The position numbers and the translations under genes were made by a program. A stretch of DNA of 47,334 bases. It comes from Rhodospirillales bacterium. Its GTDB lineage: Bacteria; Pseudomonadota; Alphaproteobacteria; Rhodospirillales; UBA2165. The DNA lies in assembly GCA_012960465.1 (NCBI GenBank), contig DUBF01000231.1, forward strand, positions 593 through 47,926, given 5' to 3'. The notes beneath the pieces were generated by a model. That model saw only the letters and a program-made list of their open reading frames with translations, was not told the DNA's origin and made no database searches. Below, piece after piece: positions 406-15,629 of the stretch (positions within the stretch are counted from its first letter, which is position 1; the number at the start of each line of letters is the position of its first letter).

Positions 406-1797
406 ATGGAAAGAGACCTTCAAAATAGCAGACCTTTTAATATGCACCTTGTCTGCACGCATACAGGGGCTGCAGATCTTATGGATCAGATAATCCAGCA
501 GTATTTTCCTGATGATAAAAGCAAAACCCTCAATAAGAACTTAGGTGTTCTCCTGCTGGATCTCTATGCAACATGGTATGAAGATCCGGACAGTTGTTTG
601 GCTGTCTATATGTCCCAGAGGTTCTATAAAGCTAAGAGCCGTTACAATGCCCTGAGTATCAGTCATCAGATTATTGATGTAATAAGGGTTCTAAATGATG
701 CAGGACTAATTGGATTGTTTAAAGGACAGCAATCAACCATAAAAGGTAAGCCCGGAAGACTCACCCGAATATGGGCAGATCCACCCCTGATTAAATTATT
801 CGAAGATGTTTCTTTCTCCATGAAAGACATCCATCAGATTGAGAATAAAGAAACCATCATCCTTCGAGATGAAGAAAAGAACGATATGGAATACGAGGAT
901 ACTCCAGACACAAGACGTATGAGGGCTGTTGTGGAGGCTTATAACAACCTTCTGGACCGCACTTTTATTGACATACCAGAGCTTAAAACTGCGGTCTTGG
1001 AAGCTACTGATGGAAGCTCAGTACGTGTCAGTCAGCAGAATAAGTCGGTATCTCGTATCTTCAGCCGGTCCAGCTTTGATCTGGGGGGAAGATACTACAA
1101 TGCTTGGTGGCATCTAATATCCAGCTTCTGGAGAGAGAAGATCCTTATTAATGATAGTCCTACTGTTGAAGATGACTACAGCGGAATGTTAATTGCACAA
1201 CTTTATGCTGCTCAGAATAAACAAATGGAAGGGGATGCATATTCCCTTGGACTGGAGGAAGAACATCCTTTTGATAGAACCATCCTCAAGAAGATCATTC
1301 TATTAGCTATTAATAGTGAAAATCTAACATCTGCCGTAAAGGATGCATCTTACCACATCCGTAAAGAATGGAAGGATGTTGTCTTTACAAACAAACAGGT
1401 CAAAGAGGTTATTGAATTCTTTAAAGCGAGACATCCTTTGATTGCAGACCAGATTGCTTCGGATGCTGGTATTCGCTTGATGCGACAGGATTCGGATATT
1501 GCTGAGATTATTATATCCCAGTTCACTGAAGAAGACATTCCCGTCTTAACCATTCATGATTCATTTATTGTACCGTGGGGACAAGAGGATAAGCTGCGAG
1601 AAAGAATGTATGCAGCATTTGAGAAAGTAACAGGGGCTAAGATCACCAAGATCACTCGAGATGGTATTGATATGACCACCTTTGATCGGGAGAGATATCG
1701 ATCACCATCCCACCGTGCTGATGTGATCAATCAGCTTAATCCTTTTAGGACGGATGGATATAAAGAACGTATGAGAAAGTTTGAGAAGAGTAATTAG
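406..1797 (+). CDS. Uncharacterised protein with single-subunit polymerase-like palm motifs
   Basis: A 463-residue protein with no signal peptide or membrane segment. The C-terminal half carries a spaced motif set resembling the palm of T7-type RNA polymerase or family A DNA polymerase: DDYSG at 256–260 (like motif A), R291 with K295/K296 and a following AIN (like motif B), and HDSF at 384–387 (like motif C). A conserved-looking LGGRYYNAWW precedes them at 226–235. I recall similar hypothetical proteins with DYSG and HDSF motifs in other Proteobacteria and mobile elements, but not a name or a proven activity. The N-terminal 200 residues are helical-looking and lack exonuclease motifs. GGGGGAT lies about 10 bases before the ATG. 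The setting (repeats, no core neighbours, tRNA nearby) suggests a mobile element. Confidence 0.75.
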   Translation: MERDLQNSRPFNMHLVCTHTGAADLMDQIIQQYFPDDKSKTLNKNLGVLLLDLYATWYEDPDSCLAVYMSQRFYKAKSRYNALSISHQIIDVIRVLNDAGLIGLFKGQQSTIKGKPGRLTRIWADPPLIKLFEDVSFSMKDIHQIENKETIILRDEEKNDMEYEDTPDTRRMRAVVEAYNNLLDRTFIDIPELKTAVLEATDGSSVRVSQQNKSVSRIFSRSSFDLGGRYYNAWWHLISSFWREKILINDSPTVEDDYSGMLIAQLYAAQNKQMEGDAYSLGLEEEHPFDRTILKKIILLAINSENLTSAVKDASYHIRKEWKDVVFTNKQVKEVIEFFKARHPLIADQIASDAGIRLMRQDSDIAEIIISQFTEEDIPVLTIHDSFIVPWGQEDKLRERMYAAFEKVTGAKITKITRDGIDMTTFDRERYRSPSHRADVINQLNPFRTDGYKERMRKFEKSN

Positions 1798-2341: not shown

Positions 2342-2398
2342 CCTGAGACTGTGACTGCTAATTAATTATCGGCCTGGCACAATTGTGGCACAGTCAGG
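2342..2398. repeat. Inverted repeat enclosing a 10-bp palindrome, upstream of tRNA-Pro
   Basis: CCTGA-GA-CTGTG at 2342–2353 pairs with CACAGTCAGG at 2389–2398 (10-bp arms, two bases bulged). The loop contains the perfect palindrome CACAATTGTG at 2378–2387, and GGCACA is repeated directly on both sides of ATTGT. It lies about 105 bp before the tRNA. It could be a protein site or a folded element; no function can be assigned. Confidence 0.45.
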
Positions 2399-2503
2399 TA
2401 CAAAATAACCCTGTTAACTCCTTGATTAGATGTCGTGACTGACTTACATTACTTAGGTGTTGAGCCTTGAATTTTATAGGGTAATTAAGGTTTTTTAATG
2501 TGT

Positions 2504-2580
<77 letters not shown>

Positions 2581-2786
2581 ATAGAAACCAATGGCTTAGC
2601 TGGAAACGGCTAGGTTATTTTTTTAATTTGGTAACATTTGTTGGTTATTTTGGGTTATTTTTGATCTCGATTACTGCAATGTAGCAAAGATTTTGGTGAG
2701 TGATGGTAAAATGGAGGTTGTTGCTTTCATCGGATTGCTAGCTGAACTCTCGCTGTACCGAAACTACTGGTTTTCCGTATGGGACC

Positions 2787-7538: not shown

Positions 7539-8717
7539 TTAAATTTGGACCCCAGCAACCGCTTGAGCTGCAATTCCTTCTCCTCTTCCGGTAAAACCAA
7601 GTTGTTCTGTAGTTGTGGCTTTAATATTAACTTTATCGCAAGTAATTTCTAAAATTTTTGCTATATTATTCTGCATCTTATCTCTATAGCTATTAATTTT
7701 AGGTCTTTCACAGATAATTGTTAGATCTATATTTATAATATTTCCATCACGTTGGTTAATTTCATTACCTGCACGAGTTAAAAAAATTTCTGAAGCACAA
7801 TTTTTCCATTTAGGATCAGATGGTGGAAATATTAAACCTATATCACCTGCACCAACGGCGCCAAGAAGCGCATCTGTTATTGCATGCATTGCAACGTCGG
7901 CATCAGAATGTCCTTTCAGTGATTTATTAAATGGAATTTTAATCCCACACAATGTAACTGATTTCCCAGTTTTGAAACTATGGACATCGGTCCCAATGCC
8001 AATCCGTATAATCTTGCTTTCTTTATTTAAATTTAGGAGTTGTTTACCCCTCACTAAATCTTGGCACGTAGTTACTTTAAAGTTTTGTGAGGATCCTTCG
8101 ATAATTTTGACTTTAACCCCATTTGCCTCGGCAATCGCAGCATCATCAGTCAGCGCAAGGCCTTTGGTAGCTTTGTGAGCCGCCATGATAGTCTCATAAT
8201 TGAAACCTTGTGGGGTTTGTGCTTGCCATAAATTTGTACGATCAACTGAACCTATAACCGTATTATTTTTAACACGTTTAAGGCTGTCTTTAATTAGAAG
8301 GCCAGGGATCGAAGCTAAATTGTGATCTTCAAGGGAGGTAAGTAAGGCATCAATAATGTCTCCAGTAAAAAATGGGCGAGCCGCGTCGTGGATAAGAACA
8401 TATTTTGGATTGATATCTTTATAACTTTCTAGACCGAGGCGTACGGACTCTTGGCGTTGATCTCCACCAAATACAGGTTCAAGTAACTTTATGCCTTTGG
8501 TCGCTTCCGTATATAATTCTATGTCGTCTGGATGAATGACGACCCTTAAATGTTTGATGCGAGGATGAGATCCCAAAATATTTAAGCACCTGGTGAGCAA
8601 GCTTAGACCGTTTAGTTTCACATATTGCTTTGGTATTTCCCCTCCAAATCTGTTTCCGCGTCCGGCGGCAACTACTAAGGCAACGCAGTCTAATGATACT
8701 TTGTTTGATAAATTCAT
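7539..8717 (-). CDS. ispDF: Bifunctional IspD–IspF enzyme (MEP isoprenoid pathway)
   Basis: A 392-residue fusion, typical of Alphaproteobacteria. The first about 230 residues are IspD (MEP cytidylyltransferase): VVAAGRGNRFGGEIPKQY nucleotide loop and HDAARPF. The remainder is IspF (MECDP synthase): GTDVHSF and HSDADVAMHAITDALLGA metal ligands, GDIGLIFPP, and TTTEQLGFTGRGEGIAAQA at the end. The two domains catalyse steps 3 and 5 of the MEP pathway to IPP and DMAPP in the cytoplasm; IspE, which acts between them, is encoded elsewhere. ATG start at 8717 with no strong ribosome binding site. Confidence 0.96.
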   Translation of the reverse strand: MNLSNKVSLDCVALVVAAGRGNRFGGEIPKQYVKLNGLSLLTRCLNILGSHPRIKHLRVVIHPDDIELYTEATKGIKLLEPVFGGDQRQESVRLGLESYKDINPKYVLIHDAARPFFTGDIIDALLTSLEDHNLASIPGLLIKDSLKRVKNNTVIGSVDRTNLWQAQTPQGFNYETIMAAHKATKGLALTDDAAIAEANGVKVKIIEGSSQNFKVTTCQDLVRGKQLLNLNKESKIIRIGIGTDVHSFKTGKSVTLCGIKIPFNKSLKGHSDADVAMHAITDALLGAVGAGDIGLIFPPSDPKWKNCASEIFLTRAGNEINQRDGNIINIDLTIICERPKINSYRDKMQNNIAKILEITCDKVNIKATTTEQLGFTGRGEGIAAQAVAGVQI

Positions 8718-8833
8718 AGTTTTTAACTATTCCAGTCTTTAGAAGTTATTAAAGCTTGCATTAACAATGCTAGAATAGAACATAGATTTTGCAAGTATTT
8801 TGCGCCAACGACAATCTTTGGTTATAAAACTGT

Positions 8834-9634
8834 ATGAATATTTTCCTGCTTCAAGTAACCGCCTTTTTAACACTCATTCCACCCTCTTTACTTTATTTGA
8901 GGCGTGAGGCTAAAAAAGATTCTCTTTTTTGGTCGGTAATTTTGGTTGCTCTTTGCGGCACCTTACTATGGGTTTATATCCAACAATCAGAGGGTTGGCG
9001 CACTGGCCTTTCTGCGGCTTTATGGTTAACTATTTCAGCATGTCTAATAATTTATATTATCATAGCCAACGTTACGGATGATGCTTGGCGCCTAACTAGT
9101 ATATTATTCCCCTATCTTTTATTACTTGGATTACTGGCTATTATATGGAACCAAGTTCCCGAACAACCTTTTTTAGGTAATATTCCTTTAGCATGGATTG
9201 GAACGCACATTTTAGTTTCTCTTGGGACCTATGGACTGCTAACGTTAGCTGCGTTGGCAGCATTCGCTGCTGCGCTTCAAGAGCGGGCATTAAAAACTAA
9301 AAAACGAACTAAATTAGCACGCCAATTACCATCCATTGCAGCCAGTGAAAAACTTGTGGTAAATTTATTAATCGCTTGTGTCATCGTGTTGAGTATCGGG
9401 CTGACTACTGGGGTAGCATCTTTGTATATATCAACTGGATACTTTCTGTCATTCAACCACAAAACAATTTTAACGCTCATTGTTTTTGTAATTGTTATTT
9501 TTATACTGTTTGTCCATTTTAACACTGGAATACGTGGACGACTGGCTATGAGGTTTGTATTATTAGCATATTTATTGCTGACTCTTGGCTACCCAGGTGT
9601 TAAATTTGTGAAAGATATTTTGCTTTCTTCTTAG
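8834..9634 (+). CDS. CcsA/YpjD-type cytochrome c assembly membrane protein
   Basis: A 266-residue polytopic protein with about eight hydrophobic segments. It matches the YpjD/CcsA-like inner-membrane family: a tandem N-terminal pair of helices, HILVSLGTYGLLTLAALAAF in the centre, FNHKTILTLIVF and a final GIRGRLAMRFVLLAYLLL helix. The full haem-handling WWD motif of true CcsA is not evident, so it is more like the YpjD branch, whose role is not settled. It is divergent from ispDF (116 bp) and about 90 bp upstream of dusB. Confidence 0.8.
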   Translation: MNIFLLQVTAFLTLIPPSLLYLRREAKKDSLFWSVILVALCGTLLWVYIQQSEGWRTGLSAALWLTISACLIIYIIIANVTDDAWRLTSILFPYLLLLGLLAIIWNQVPEQPFLGNIPLAWIGTHILVSLGTYGLLTLAALAAFAAALQERALKTKKRTKLARQLPSIAASEKLVVNLLIACVIVLSIGLTTGVASLYISTGYFLSFNHKTILTLIVFVIVIFILFVHFNTGIRGRLAMRFVLLAYLLLTLGYPGVKFVKDILLSS

Positions 9635-9726
9635 GCAAATTTAAAAATTTACTTTAAAATTATATTCTTTTTAATTGCATTTTATCCATTTTCGCCTAAT
9701 AAATACGCAAATTATAAGGATTAATT

Positions 9727-10713
9727 GTGAAAATCAAGATAGGTCCAATTGAACTTGACAACAATGTAATTCTTGCACCAATGTCAGGTGTCTCCGATAT
9801 GCCTTATCGAAGATTAGCAAAAAGAAATGGTGCAGCTTTGGTCATCTCAGAGATGATTGCAAGTCAAGCTATGGTTTATGCAAATAGAAAAACTATGAAA
9901 ATGGCTAGTAATTGCGCTGAAGAGTTTCCAATGGCAGTTCAATTGGCCGGATGCGAGCCGAAATTAATGGCAGAAGCTGCAAAACTAAACGAAGATCGTG
10001 GTGCCGCAATTATAGATATAAACATGGGTTGTCCGGTAAAAAAGGTTACCAAGGGTCATGCTGGCTCAGCGTTGATGAAAGATGAAAAACTTGCTGGTCA
10101 AATAATCGAATCTGTTGTTAAAGCTGTCAAATTACCAGTAACTCTAAAAATGAGAACAGGCTGGGACGAAAATTCAAGAAATGCTCCAATATTAGCTAAA
10201 ATAGCAGAGGATTCTGGCGTCCAAATGCTAACAATCCATGGAAGAACGCGTAACCAATTGTATCGCGGTAAGGCTGATTGGAGTTTCATCCGAAACGTAA
10301 AGAAAGCAGTTTCTATTCCTGTGATAGGTAATGGTGATGTAACAAAAGTCGATCATGCTGCTGTACTTTTAGAGCAATCTGGTGCTGATGGTGTTATGAT
10401 TGGTCGTGGGACATATGGTCGCCCTTGGTTTATCAGCCAGGTTAATCATTTTTTAAAAACTGGAGAACGTTTAGAAAATCCAGAAATATCAACTCAATAT
10501 GAAATAGTTATCAATCACTATGGAGAGCTAATTGCCCACTATGGCCGAGAGCGAGGTCTAAGAGTAGCTCGTAAGCATATAGCTTGGTACACCAAAGGAC
10601 TTCCGGGTTCAGCCGGATTTAGGGATGTTTTTAATCGGATAAATAATATTGCTGAGGCTAAGTTAGCACTTAATAGCTTTTATTTGCCATTACTTGAACG
10701 CAATGTAGCTTAA
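9727..10713 (+). CDS. dusB: tRNA-dihydrouridine synthase DusB (NifR3 family)
   Basis: A 328-residue TIM-barrel flavoenzyme that reduces uridine to dihydrouridine in the D loop of tRNA. Signatures: LAPMSGVSDMPYRRL at the start, INMGCPVKKVTKGHAGSAL with the catalytic Cys, LKMRTGWDE, IHGRTRNQLYRGKADW, and GADGVMIGRGTYGRPW at the phosphate site. It starts with GTG after AAGGAT. It heads the conserved alphaproteobacterial dusB–ntrBC–ntrYX block; its old name nifR3 comes from this link to nitrogen regulation. Confidence 0.96.
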   Translation: MKIKIGPIELDNNVILAPMSGVSDMPYRRLAKRNGAALVISEMIASQAMVYANRKTMKMASNCAEEFPMAVQLAGCEPKLMAEAAKLNEDRGAAIIDINMGCPVKKVTKGHAGSALMKDEKLAGQIIESVVKAVKLPVTLKMRTGWDENSRNAPILAKIAEDSGVQMLTIHGRTRNQLYRGKADWSFIRNVKKAVSIPVIGNGDVTKVDHAAVLLEQSGADGVMIGRGTYGRPWFISQVNHFLKTGERLENPEISTQYEIVINHYGELIAHYGRERGLRVARKHIAWYTKGLPGSAGFRDVFNRINNIAEAKLALNSFYLPLLERNVA

Positions 10714-10735
10714 ATGCCTATGAAAAGTCATAGTT

Positions 10736-11836
10736 ATGCCCTTTTTTGAAGAGTCTCTAAATATTAAAAGTGATAATATTTTAAACGGCCTCGGTTCTAG
10801 TATCATAGTAATTGATGATCGTTCCAATATAGCCTATCTAAATAGCTCGGCGGAACAATTCTTCGCTGGTAGTCAAACGCAGTTAAAAGGACAAGAAATT
10901 GGTCAATTATTGCCATTTGATAGTCCTCTAATGACTTTAATAAAACAGGTTCAATTAAGTGGTAGCGGTGTTTCTGATTATGGCCTTACGCTTGATACTC
11001 CGCGTATAGTGAAACAATTGATAAACGTTCAAGTTACCCCGGTATTAGATTATCCTGGGTTCGCAATTTTGAATATATTTAAACGTTCGATGGCTGATAA
11101 AATTGATCGCCAACTTACCCATCGTAATACTGCTAGATCGGTATCAGCGATGTCCGCAATGCTGGCTCATGAAGTTAAAAATCCCTTATCTGGGATCCGC
11201 GGCGCTGCACAATTATTAGAACAAGAGGCTACCGGTGGGGATCAGGAATTAACTCAACTAATTTGTGATGAGACTGACCGGATCTGCGAACTTGTTGATC
11301 GAATGGAAGTGTTTTCGGATCAGCGTCCACTTGAACGGAAGTCAGTAAATGCACATAAAGTATTAGAACGGGTGCGTCAAATTGCGCAAAATGGCTTTGC
11401 TGAAAATATCAAGATTATTGAGAAATATGATCCTTCGTTGCCATCCATAAATGGCGATCACGATCAATTAGTACAGATATTCTTGAATCTAATAAAAAAT
11501 GCTGCTGAAGCAATAAATCATGAAAATGGTGAAATTATTTTGAGTACGGCCTATCAGCATAGTGTGCACTTTGCACTACCTGGAAGAGTATCGCGGGCCC
11601 TTTTACCATTGGTTATTAGTGTGCAAGATAATGGGACTGGTATACCTGTTGAACTTCAAGATCATTTATTTGAGGCTTTTGTGACCTCTAAGTCAAATGG
11701 AACAGGGCTTGGCCTCGCTTTAGTAGCTAAAATGATTGATGACCACGGTGGGGTAATCGAATTTGATAGTTATCCAGGCAAAACAGTATTTCGCGTGATC
11801 CTTCCTATGTCTACTAATCCTGATGAAACGGATTAG
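10736..11836 (+). CDS. ntrB: Nitrogen regulation sensor kinase NtrB
   Basis: A 366-residue soluble histidine kinase without membrane segments. It has an N-terminal PAS domain (about 10–110), the H-box [16 protein letters not shown] with phosphorylated H145, the N-box [11 protein letters not shown], and ATP-binding VQDNGTGIP and [12 protein letters not shown]. In this family it phosphorylates or dephosphorylates NtrC under PII control according to nitrogen status. The start lies 23 bp after dusB, and ntrC follows by 17 bp, so these genes are probably cotranscribed. Confidence 0.95.
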
Positions 11837-13350: not shown

Positions 13351-15558
13351 ATGTTAGATGTTCAAACTAAATCGAGATTTAGAACGATGCCTCGTTTGTT
13401 CAACTCGCCGCGTTTAACCAAGGTGCTTGTTATTCTGATTGCTACTTCTTTATGTATATCAGGTCTGGCGACAATTATTATATTATCCGAGTTTTCTCCA
13501 CTTAACCCTAATCTTGGTAGTGTAATTGCCTTACTGAACCTAGATTTAGGTCTAGCAGTATTGCTAGGTGTCGTGCTTGTTAGAAAAATTATTCATACTT
13601 GGTTTAAAAACAAATTTAGTCCAGCAGGTTCAAAACTCCATATAAAAATGGTTATTTCATTTGGTATGGTGGCCATTATTCCTGCGTTACTTGTCGTTGT
13701 GTTTTTGGGTTTATTTCTGAATTTTGGAATAGAAACTTGGTTTAATAAACGTGTGCGAACAGCGGTGAATGCCTCAACGGTTGTTGCGCAATTATATTTA
13801 AAAGAACACCAACAAAATATTCGAGGGATTGCCCTTTCAATGGCGAACGATTTAAATAGAGCTGCACCGAGAATGCGTCAGAATCCTCGATTACTTAAAG
13901 AATTTATAATAACTCTATCGGATTTGAAAAATCTCTCAGAAGCTGTTGTTGTTAATAGTAGTGGAAAAACTCTAGCTCGATCCCAACTTAGTTTTTCTTT
14001 AGGATTCAATTTTTCAAATGATGATTTATTGAAAGGTATCCTTAACGGTCGGCCTGGCGAAGTGATAATTATTACAAATCAGTTTGGTAACACTGTTCGG
14101 GCTGGGGTAAAACTGGAAGCTTTTTTCGATACATATTTATTAGTTGGTAAATTCGTCGATGCTCAGGTACTTCAGCATATAGCTCAAACCACAGGTGCAG
14201 CTGACAAGTATCTCTTATTAGAAAAAAATATATACAATCTTCAAACTAAATTTATGTTTGTCTTTGTCCTAATTGCTTTTTTACTCTTACTATCAGCGAT
14301 TTGGATTGGGTGGTCCATCGCCTCAAAGATCTCAACACCAATTGGAAAACTGATTGATGCAGCAGATAATGTAGGTAAAGGTGATTTGACGACCAAAGTT
14401 GATTATGACAAAAGAAAGGATAAAGATGAGGTCGGGAAACTTAGTCATTCATTCAATCTAATGACCGAACAATTGCGTAATCAGCAGTTTGGGCTTATCG
14501 AAGCAAACCGTCAATTGGATGAAAGAAGGCGTTTTACAGAAGTAGTACTCTCGGGAGTTTCAGCCGGGGTCATTGGCCTCGATAAAAGGGGTTGTATTCA
14601 TCTTTCGAATAGATCTGCGTTCGAATTATTATCCATTAAATTAGAAGAACATGTAGATGAGCCTCTTGGTGTTTGTATCCCTGAAATGGTTAGTTTGCTA
14701 GATGAGGTTATTGCCAACCCAAGCCGTATCGTCAATGGAGAGATTAAATTAGGTCGTAACGGTTGGCAAAAAACTCTAGTCGTATCTATAGCGGCGGAGA
14801 AAATAAAACAAGAAATTATTGGTTTTGTTGTAACATTTGATGATGTTTCCGAATTGCTTTCAGCCCAACGAAAAGCAGCTTGGGCTGATGTAGCCCAGCG
14901 CATTGCACATGAAATTAAAAACCCTTTGACGCCTATCCAACTTTCTGCTGAACGCCTAAAGCGGAAGTATAAGGCAGAAATAAAATCAGACCAAAAAACA
15001 TTTTTGATGTGCACGGATACCATAATTCGACAAGTTAAGGACATAGAACGGATGGTTGATGAGTTTTCTTCATTTTCAAGAATGCCAGAACCCGACTTTA
15101 AAGCTGTGAATCTTTCTGAACTTTGCACACAAAGTGTTTTTTTAGAACAAAATAGATTTCCCGATATCGATTATATAATTAATACTGGAGAAGTAGAAAT
15201 AATTATTTCAGGTGATCGACAACAAATAAGCCAATCTCTAACAAACATTATGAAAAATGCAGCAGAATCAATTATTTATGATTCTAATTTGAAGAAGGAA
15301 ATTAAAGGGAAAATTCAATTGGATCTCTTAAATAAACCTAGTCAGATTTTTATTCATATTTCAGATAACGGGGGTGGATTTTCAGAAAATTTGATAGACC
15401 GGATCTCTGAACCTTATGTGACGACGCGTGAAAATGGTACTGGATTGGGACTAGCCATTGCCACTAAAATAATGGAAGATCATAATGGTGAGATTTTACT
15501 TCGTAATGATAAAAACGGTGGTGCTACGGTAACGTTAGTATTTAATAAAATAGTTTAA
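13351..15558 (+). CDS. ntrY: Membrane sensor kinase NtrY
   Basis: A 735-residue histidine kinase. Three hydrophobic segments are near the N-terminus (about 25–47, 58–80, 98–125). A periplasmic sensing region extends to about 300, then a fourth helix (MFVFVLIAFLLLLSAIWIGW). HAMP (SKISTPIGKLIDAADNVGKG), PAS and kinase domains follow. The H-box is RIAHEIKNPLTPIQLSAERL with H520; the N-box is NIMKNAAESI; the ATP lid is GTGLGLAIATKI. NtrY pairs with NtrX and responds to nitrogen and, in some Alphaproteobacteria, redox signals. It follows ntrC by 57 bp. Confidence 0.95.
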   Translation: MLDVQTKSRFRTMPRLFNSPRLTKVLVILIATSLCISGLATIIILSEFSPLNPNLGSVIALLNLDLGLAVLLGVVLVRKIIHTWFKNKFSPAGSKLHIKMVISFGMVAIIPALLVVVFLGLFLNFGIETWFNKRVRTAVNASTVVAQLYLKEHQQNIRGIALSMANDLNRAAPRMRQNPRLLKEFIITLSDLKNLSEAVVVNSSGKTLARSQLSFSLGFNFSNDDLLKGILNGRPGEVIIITNQFGNTVRAGVKLEAFFDTYLLVGKFVDAQVLQHIAQTTGAADKYLLLEKNIYNLQTKFMFVFVLIAFLLLLSAIWIGWSIASKISTPIGKLIDAADNVGKGDLTTKVDYDKRKDKDEVGKLSHSFNLMTEQLRNQQFGLIEANRQLDERRRFTEVVLSGVSAGVIGLDKRGCIHLSNRSAFELLSIKLEEHVDEPLGVCIPEMVSLLDEVIANPSRIVNGEIKLGRNGWQKTLVVSIAAEKIKQEIIGFVVTFDDVSELLSAQRKAAWADVAQRIAHEIKNPLTPIQLSAERLKRKYKAEIKSDQKTFLMCTDTIIRQVKDIERMVDEFSSFSRMPEPDFKAVNLSELCTQSVFLEQNRFPDIDYIINTGEVEIIISGDRQQISQSLTNIMKNAAESIIYDSNLKKEIKGKIQLDLLNKPSQIFIHISDNGGGFSENLIDRISEPYVTTRENGTGLGLAIATKIMEDHNGEILLRNDKNGGATVTLVFNKIV

Positions 15559-15629
15559 CGTTGGTAACTCAATCAAATTTAGATAAGAATTATTTTTTTA
15601 ATTTTATATAGCGAGTTTTATTTAAATTC

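Follow-up and report, generated by a model that had tools for sequence, protein, structure and literature searches.

A gene at positions 406–1797 (forward strand) of a 47,334-nt stretch of DNA from a Rhodospirillales bacterium (GTDB UBA2165; assembly GCA_012960465.1, contig DUBF01000231.1, positions 593–47,926), here called the window, encodes a polymerase-like protein of 463 aa with a predicted palm fold. The open reading frame (ORF) begins with ATG, as initially annotated, and its product belongs by sequence to phrog_4756, a phage protein family without a named function. The protein is best explained, from its predicted structure, as a compact polymerase of one subunit, in a palm-superfamily lineage of its own, and its relatives recur in small elements integrated at tRNA genes. 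In the reading we favor, to which we give a probability of about 0.5, the protein would serve as a primase or polymerase when the excised tRNA-integrated element replicates; its activity, its product and its role in initiation are what we infer here. The genome (G000) comprises 3.74 Mb in 245 contigs, and the window lies on contig C231.

Predicted fold, motifs and placement of the protein

The AlphaFold2 model of the window protein, made with 74 sequences, had a predicted local distance difference test score (pLDDT) of 92.9 and a predicted TM score (pTM) of 0.90. The best PDB match by Foldseek was the apicoplast DNA polymerase (apPOL; 7.5e-5). VIA-align superposed the model on apPOL (5dkt) with Z 14.0 (root-mean-square deviation, rmsd, 3.6; 241 residues aligned), on Bst Pol I (4dsj) with Z 13.3 (rmsd 3.9, 253 aligned) and on the yeast mitochondrial RNA polymerase (RNAP; 8att) also with Z 13.3 (rmsd 3.8, 249 aligned). 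These matches covered about residues 145–422, the palm and fingers, and none of the 50 PDB matches listed was a family B polymerase, an archaeo-eukaryotic primase or a reverse transcriptase, an absence that by itself excludes none of them. Among the matches to viral models, the first 11 (E ≤ 1.4e-16) carried no functional name except one "DNA polymerase", and those with an organism shown were phage proteins. The initial annotation had proposed a palm of this kind, and the fold had been set beforehand as the point on which that proposal could be refuted; the predicted model has a palm of the Pol A/single-subunit RNAP type. By model and motifs, the protein thus falls within the palm superfamily of family A DNA polymerases and single-subunit RNAPs. 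A chance resemblance is ruled out by the model and by residue conservation.

The palm motifs occur in the proposed order. They comprise DLGGR (residues 225–229), which together with the GR..WW signature spans residues 225–235 (positions 1078–1110, forward strand, as for all features given here without a strand); motif A, DDYSG (256–260; 1171–1185), with the putative catalytic D257; the DxY motif, here DAY (277–279; 1234–1242); motif B, or O-helix, with R291, K295 and N303 (1276–1314); and motif C, HDS (384–386; 1555–1563), with the putative catalytic D385. Conservation was read from an alignment (A4) of the window protein and 73 relatives, drawn from 87 loci minus 14 that were excluded because their copies were partial, frameshifted or cut. 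Invariant in all 74 sequences were G228, D257, Y279, K295, N303, H384 and D385; R229 and R291 were kept in 73, D277 in 72 and the Asp of DxxGR in 28. The relatives had been recruited by the patterns GR..WW, a segment running from RIF up to but excluding GGR, and HDS[FYA], so that conservation in the columns of these patterns is biased, but D257, D277, Y279, R291, K295 and N303 lie outside these patterns. Among the catalytic residues named initially, D257, K295 and D385 hold, whereas K296 is not the motif B lysine. A chained pattern of GR and motifs A, B and C, written after the protein had been seen, matched the real sequence and none of 20,000 shuffles; the motif chain is therefore not a composition effect, and the shuffle test says no more than that.

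Profile comparisons did not place the family with any of the named polymerases. The hhalign values of the family were 0.4% against T7 RNAP, 1.3% against Pol I and 11.1% against N4 RNAPII (gp16), or 28.6% when the palm alone was compared with the latter, in the motif C region only; N4 against T7 gave 99.3%. Two positions that bear on sugar selection also set the family apart. Eight residues past the motif B lysine, all 74 members have Asn where Tyr is found in 11/11 T7-type RNAPs, 8/8 N4-type RNAPs and 13/13 Pol I sequences (from the host and its relatives). Five residues past the motif A aspartate, 69 of the 74 have His and the window protein has Leu; the T7 and N4 types have Gly there and Pol I has Glu (13/13). 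In a separate 13-row alignment outside A4 (A1), N303 was found in 11 rows and H262 in 10. The DxY motif has counterparts in D569/Y571 of T7-type (11/11) and D113/Y115 of N4-type RNAPs (8/8), and Pol I has DIH.

Thus the Glu and Tyr expected of a family A DNA polymerase are both absent, and of the features expected of a T7-like RNAP the GR is kept, the DxxGR Asp is present in a minority, and the motif A Gly and motif B Tyr are replaced. With family A DNA polymerases (apPOL, Bst Pol I, Taq) the proteins have in common the palm/fingers fold (Z 12–14), GR, the motif A Asp, R-x3-K and HD, but they differ in having mostly His for Glu, Asn for Tyr, DxY for DIH and HDS for HDE. With the T7, mitochondrial and N4-type RNAPs they have in common the palm fold, along with DxY in the T7 and N4 types and HDS in T7, and the window protein is compact, as is N4 gp16 (404 aa); the profile comparison with these RNAPs is not significant, however, and Gly is mostly His and Tyr is Asn. 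Family members have the superfamily fold, but do not show the complete feature set of Pol I, T7 RNAP or N4 RNAPII. A straightforward T7 RNAP, N4 RNAP or Pol I was rejected on the profile comparisons and the substituted fixed residues.

These comparisons bear directly on the possibility that the protein is an element-specific RNAP, with its N-terminal domain reading promoters and its palm transcribing the element on induction, as happens with N4 RNAPII or T7 RNAP in their phages. The DxY, GR and HDS motifs common to T7-type RNAPs, the yeast mitochondrial RNAP among the best structural matches, and weak matches to RNA polymerase families (PF00940 in 2/74 members, best 0.0013; phrog_2051 in 8/74, best 8.2e-4; phrog_414 in 4/74) speak for it. 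The low hhalign values against T7 RNAP and N4 RNAPII and the loss of the RNAP-fixed Tyr and Gly speak against it; a DNA polymerase family, phrog_2573, is also matched by 5/74 members, and phage KASIA, which encodes a homolog, has a separate large RNA polymerase gene. We consider this alternative unlikely, though it is the strongest of those weighed here.

The initial annotation stated that recognizable exonuclease and promoter-recognition domains were lacking. No exonuclease domain was recognized in the window protein, but residues ~19–165 (positions 460–900) form a separate predicted domain, and it would be unsafe to say that a DNA-recognition domain is missing. Modeled alone (~145 residues), the domain had a pLDDT of 91.6. 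Foldseek returned nothing for it at E ≤ 0.001, with T7 RNAP chains among the rows at ~0.2, and the best VIA-align Z was 6.5, under the level that the tool trusts. We take the best VIA-align rows to be largely winged-helix proteins of the eS10, Fur, MarR and PadR types, and "winged-helix-like" is our tentative working label for the modeled domain.

Distribution of the family and its altered copies

The window protein matched phrog_4756 (PHROGs v4) with E 1.1e-40, residues 65–413 aligning to 80–432 of 440, and this family, the only one with a strong match, was matched by all 74 members. PHROGs states no function for it, and the relatives found here in integrated elements come from bacterial genomes rather than from a phage collection. 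Pfam, NCBIfam and PADLOC gave no usable match to the window protein, and PDB sequence searches with protein and profile queries gave no useful one; matches to OGG_N (E 0.059) and alpha-1-syntrophin (E 0.49) were dismissed as noise. PF00476 was matched by 0/74 members and was not among the 15 families matched by any member at E ≤ 0.1. We found no description of this protein family in the open-licence literature, as judged from titles and the beginnings of abstracts.

Relatives were found by tblastn in 165 phage records (115 Rheinheimera, 28 Vibrio, 14 Aeromonas and others), with query coverage below 80% throughout, as well as in 5 plasmid records; the homologs in isolated phages are distant. 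When viral contigs were scanned with the window protein as the only query, the 10 stretches obtained contained no relative. In the genome-collection scan, 291 of 314 stretches were confirmed and 80 kept, and by their titles the latter were mostly Rhodobacterales and SAR116, with some from other phyla as bins of metagenome-assembled genomes. These 80 genomic loci and 7 viral contigs make up the set of 87 loci used below; some later counts use 114. Duplicate or nearly identical DNA occurs among the loci (L118 and L033; L089 and the plasmid copy L021). The family was present in 8 of 60 genomes of a kinship sample and 23 of 289 genomes of a class-wide sample (own genome included in both), and the window's own genome has further copies on contigs C12 and C161 and, as fragments, on C4. 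This patchy, multi-copy occurrence fits a mobile gene. In a tree made by a quick method with 107 of 115 sequences (some rows dropped by name, others for being shorter than 330 aa), the window copy stood apart from the C12 and C161 copies, with modest support and several long branches, which suggests separate arrivals.

Several loci show rearranged or additional copies. The C4 locus (L029) contains two polymerase gene fragments, at 1–470 and 2368–2772 (reverse strand), a decayed or rearranged copy, and the ORF between them is, by eye, multicopper-oxidase-like. Locus L060 has a polymerase gene (7974–9494) and a second, N-terminal-only copy of 143 aa (14369–14800) with the same start sequence in one element. 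A 5.2-kb IMG/VR contig (L043) carries a family member and, on its other strand, a phage terminase large subunit.

Two long paralogs from the window's genus, outside the aligned set, have altered active sites. The copy on C161 carries D257G and N303S, and its counterpart in genome G002 carries D257S, N303V, H384N and D385E. Their reading frames are intact over 634 and 633 codons, and between them the nonsynonymous divergence (dN) is 0.22 and the synonymous divergence (dS) 1.84, a dS near saturation; part of the constraint may predate the catalytic loss. The altered paralogs, which lie at 9523–11427 (L028, 634 aa) and 9771–11672 (L036, 633 aa), thus appear by sequence to be under purifying selection, and they may be kept for DNA binding. 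These copies are what would favor a family of non-catalytic DNA-binding proteins with a relict palm. Since D257, K295 and D385 are intact in the window copy, as in every one of the 74 aligned sequences, we regard that explanation as the least probable of all.

Elements at tRNA genes and a proposed role in their replication

Tyrosine integrases were the most widespread neighbors of the polymerase gene. Two kinds formed clusters found in 30 and 15 of the 87 loci, the next cluster being found in 9, and a tyrosine integrase was present in 48 loci altogether, a raw count that carries no background rate for random genes. We then asked how often at least 15 nt of a tRNA region (tRNA position 20 through 50 nt beyond the tRNA) recur exactly across the polymerase gene, counting both partners where both element ends were called as tRNAs. 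This was so for 32 of the 61 tRNAs, compared to 14 of 1,220 random segments from the same loci. The repeated part was the tRNA 3′ end in some loci and part of the anticodon arm in others.

By these repeats, up to 56 nt long (tRNA-Leu in L091, tRNA-Val in L110), 26 of the 87 loci were delimited as elements of 2.5–15 kb. A tyrosine integrase was present in 24 of the 26 and lay within ~160 bp of an element end in 16 of these 24. One of the other two, L128, has only a resolvase, and the delimitation of the other (L049, 2.5 kb, no integrase) may be due to chance. The smallest layouts are simple. L038 (3.3 kb) consists of tRNA-Val, integrase, one cargo gene, a shortened polymerase gene and a 57-nt repeat, and L118/L033 (5.0 kb) has an integrase, the polymerase and a caspase-domain protein. 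In L039, from the window's genus, tRNA-Phe, integrase, HTH_17 and polymerase genes are found with no repeat; the HTH_17 (AlpA-like) match scored 20 against a cut-off of 27 bits. A 79-aa HTH_17 protein likewise precedes the polymerase gene on C12 (26.7 against 27 bits) and on contig C103 of G002. No match to replication families was found among ten other genes of five small elements, in which not every small ORF was scanned. At the family level, then, these are tRNA-integrating elements with a tyrosine recombinase, and the suggestion that the protein serves a small mobile element as its polymerase has good support at that level; for the window copy itself it is a candidate role.

The integrase association would also suit a DNA polymerase of narrow use, one that fills gaps at excision or integration or acts as an untemplated nucleotidyl transferase, and family A DNA polymerases are among its closest folds. 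The replacement of both DNA-polymerase residues, Glu and Tyr, the lack of a recognized exonuclease domain and the lack of PF00476 matches argue against it, and we consider it improbable.

For the replication role that we prefer, the model, by analogy, is the layout of the PICMI satellites. These are reported to consist of int, AlpA and a primase, and deletion of the primase lowers the circular/concatemeric copy number (PMC10803314). In the mechanism that we propose, excision of the element from the tRNA gene would be the work of the integrase, joined in some elements by an AlpA-like excisionase, and the winged-helix-like domain would place the enzyme on element DNA. The palm would then make a primer or short strand for extension by the host replisome or Pol I, and the RNA would be removed or processed by the RNase H that a few elements encode adjacent to the polymerase.

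RNase H genes adjoin the polymerase gene in 3 of 114 loci, a set that includes a few duplicates. The L251 RNase H (5.3e-44) lies ~36 bp upstream of the polymerase gene. In L253 it (3.3e-36) lies 226 bp downstream, with genes for a weakly HTH_17-like protein and an integrase next and then tRNA-Thr. In L034 a weak match (0.0078; tblastn 4.9e-6) overlaps the polymerase start. The L251 and L253 polymerases are only 27% identical, so that the association with RNase H probably arose more than once. A conserved upstream partner was rejected: similarity among 48 upstream ORFs was limited to three pairs, one of which consisted of pieces of the polymerase gene itself.

The neighbors also include defense-type genes. 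In a scan of 100 of the 139 listed neighbors, with the best 25 of 93 Pfam and of 103 PADLOC families viewed, caspase-domain genes made up 3 and KAP-NTPase genes 2 of the 100 (among the families listed); AbiE genes were also seen, and restriction-modification-type genes lie near the polymerase in L022, L045, L053, L072, L252 and L255. Such genes, adjoining the polymerase in several loci, would suit a protein that is itself anti-phage cargo and whose palm makes phage-interfering nucleic acid, like the reverse-transcriptase-type defense systems, and defense-type cargo is usual for small satellites. Phages carry homologs, however, and the polymerase recurs across elements while most of its neighbors change, a pattern that suits a core gene better than cargo. 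The membership in a defense system raised initially therefore has restriction-modification neighbors in its favor, but no PADLOC model matches the protein, and we think such a function quite unlikely.

A number of observations weigh against the replication role. Of the 87 loci, 61 were not delimited (many are cut by contig ends), and 39 have no tyrosine integrase in the available stretch; HTH_17-like genes were seen in four loci, RNase H neighbors are rare, and the winged-helix assignment is weak at a Z under the trusted level. The change from Tyr to Asn in all 74 sequences, together with a His or Leu sugar gate, means that the protein may not polymerize normally, and its use of ribo- or deoxyribonucleotides is not predictable; the unusual residues could equally reflect altered substrate choice or weak catalysis. 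The two open paralogs without catalytic residues point the same way. In one locus (L247, contig C14 of G163), an 8,949-bp unit (8,841 over part) is repeated head to tail on a 21.3-kb contig (20 kb examined) and encodes a 597-aa polymerase, RepA_C (6e-30), a ParA-type ATPase and a resolvase; this is apparently a circular plasmid whose assembly ran past the full circle, or else a multimer. Since this plasmid has its own RepA, the polymerase is not the sole initiator there. Similarly, KASIA encodes a primase and a helicase besides its large RNA polymerase, and phage Barba9A encodes a primase and a DNA polymerase, so that the family protein must be an extra in both.

Evidence from empty sites is likewise partial. 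Among 7 genomes of the genus of G255, no 450-nt match was found, and two (G350, G348) crossed the junction by 28–39 nt. Among 56 genomes of the genus of G310, five (G400, G360, G401, G390, G355) crossed it by ~62 nt and then ended, which gives partial support for an empty site. In the family of G219, 38 of 59 other genomes matched at least positions 23–250 of the tRNA-Gly side at the tRNA-Gly(GCC) locus (L252), and many of the 60 genomes, among the matches listed, have extra copies of ~52 nt of the tRNA 3′ end close to the tRNA; this locus is an integration hot spot rather than an empty site.

The window locus and related systems

The element of the window copy could not be delimited because the contig starts 997 bp to the left of the gene. 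Upstream of the gene, the DNA is AT-rich and looks of low complexity. Downstream lie the two copies of a 35-nt direct repeat (91% identical), one just past the polymerase stop codon (1804–1838) and one just past the stop of the next ORF (2230–2264); with ≤2 mismatches allowed, its 26-nt core was not found in the genome outside this pair. The ORF between them (1912–2217, 101 aa) is one that we take, by eye, to be flagellar basal-body-rod-like. A tRNA-Pro(GGG) follows at 2504–2580, and farther downstream are ordinary alphaproteobacterial genes such as ntrX, hflX and dusB. The description of this region as a repeat-rich zone near a tRNA gene holds for the tRNA, but the repeats are modest, with this one 35-nt pair.

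The tRNA-Pro is a possible attachment site, with no convincing repeat in the available window sequence: only a 15-nt AT-rich repeat of its region was found, at 15590. It was first set aside, the gene being on its 5′ side, and was reinstated as a candidate since the delimited L118 and L120 have the same order. In the window, the tRNA comes after the gene and shares its strand. In L118 and L120, the polymerase has the integrase and the second repeat on its left; with the left side of the window copy off the contig, tRNA-Pro may or may not be the site of the window copy.

A non-coding segment downstream of the gene (2228–2394) recurs close to two other family copies, on C12 (81%) and on contig C8 of G004 (84%), in a different orientation relative to the polymerase gene. 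Shorter, weaker pieces occur on G002:C38 and G000:C166, with no family copy found beside either. The ~170-bp segment, found near three family copies in all (L027, 16123–16293, and L037, 8300–8439, both on the reverse strand, besides the window), ends in a CACAATTGTGGCACAG-like stretch and may be an attachment (att) or origin region. It links the window locus to such elements without delimiting one. The best reading is that the window gene still sits in such an element, or descends from one, with the left end of that element off the contig.

To our knowledge, few kinds of element bring a polymerase of their own (pipolins, casposons and self-synthesizing transposons do), and these are built on family B enzymes. 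Pipolins are likewise integrative elements with a polymerase of their own (piPolB, PMC7385651), but the polymerase here is family-A-like, with no PolB family among its Pfam matches. The PICMI satellites (PMC10803314) are small islands, and some elements here also combine an integrase, an HTH_17/AlpA-like regulator and a replication-type enzyme. Unlike PICMI, the elements here lie at tRNA genes where delimited rather than beside fis (fis itself was not searched for), have a palm polymerase instead of a DUF3987/DUF5906 primase (no such match) and have no known helper phage. Tycheposons (PMC10872708) are bordered by tRNAs and carry a tyrosine recombinase and variable cargo, as do the elements here; Charybdis elements (PMC12324425) are a different thing.

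Our verdict is that the family is a palm-polymerase lineage without a name, linked to compact tRNA-integrated elements, and a variant of element-encoded polymerases. A bolder proposal, which we put forward as doubtful but possible, is that the family is a third, undescribed lineage of the family-A/T7 palm superfamily and defines a broad group of minimal integrative elements. A self-encoded, winged-helix-guided primase-polymerase with an unusual pair of Asn and mostly His would start replication of the excised circle. In some elements, RNase H would process the primer, as in ColE1 but with an element-encoded primer enzyme, and some hosts would have kept catalytically dead copies for a different use, for example to control the elements. 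If the association holds, a family-A/RNAP-type palm enzyme as a recurrent gene would be a marker for finding tRNA-integrated elements, would explain how very small islands might replicate, and would offer a compact polymerase with an unexplored sugar-selection site. A lineage that fits neither group makes the origin and division of the DNA- and RNA-making family A enzymes testable.

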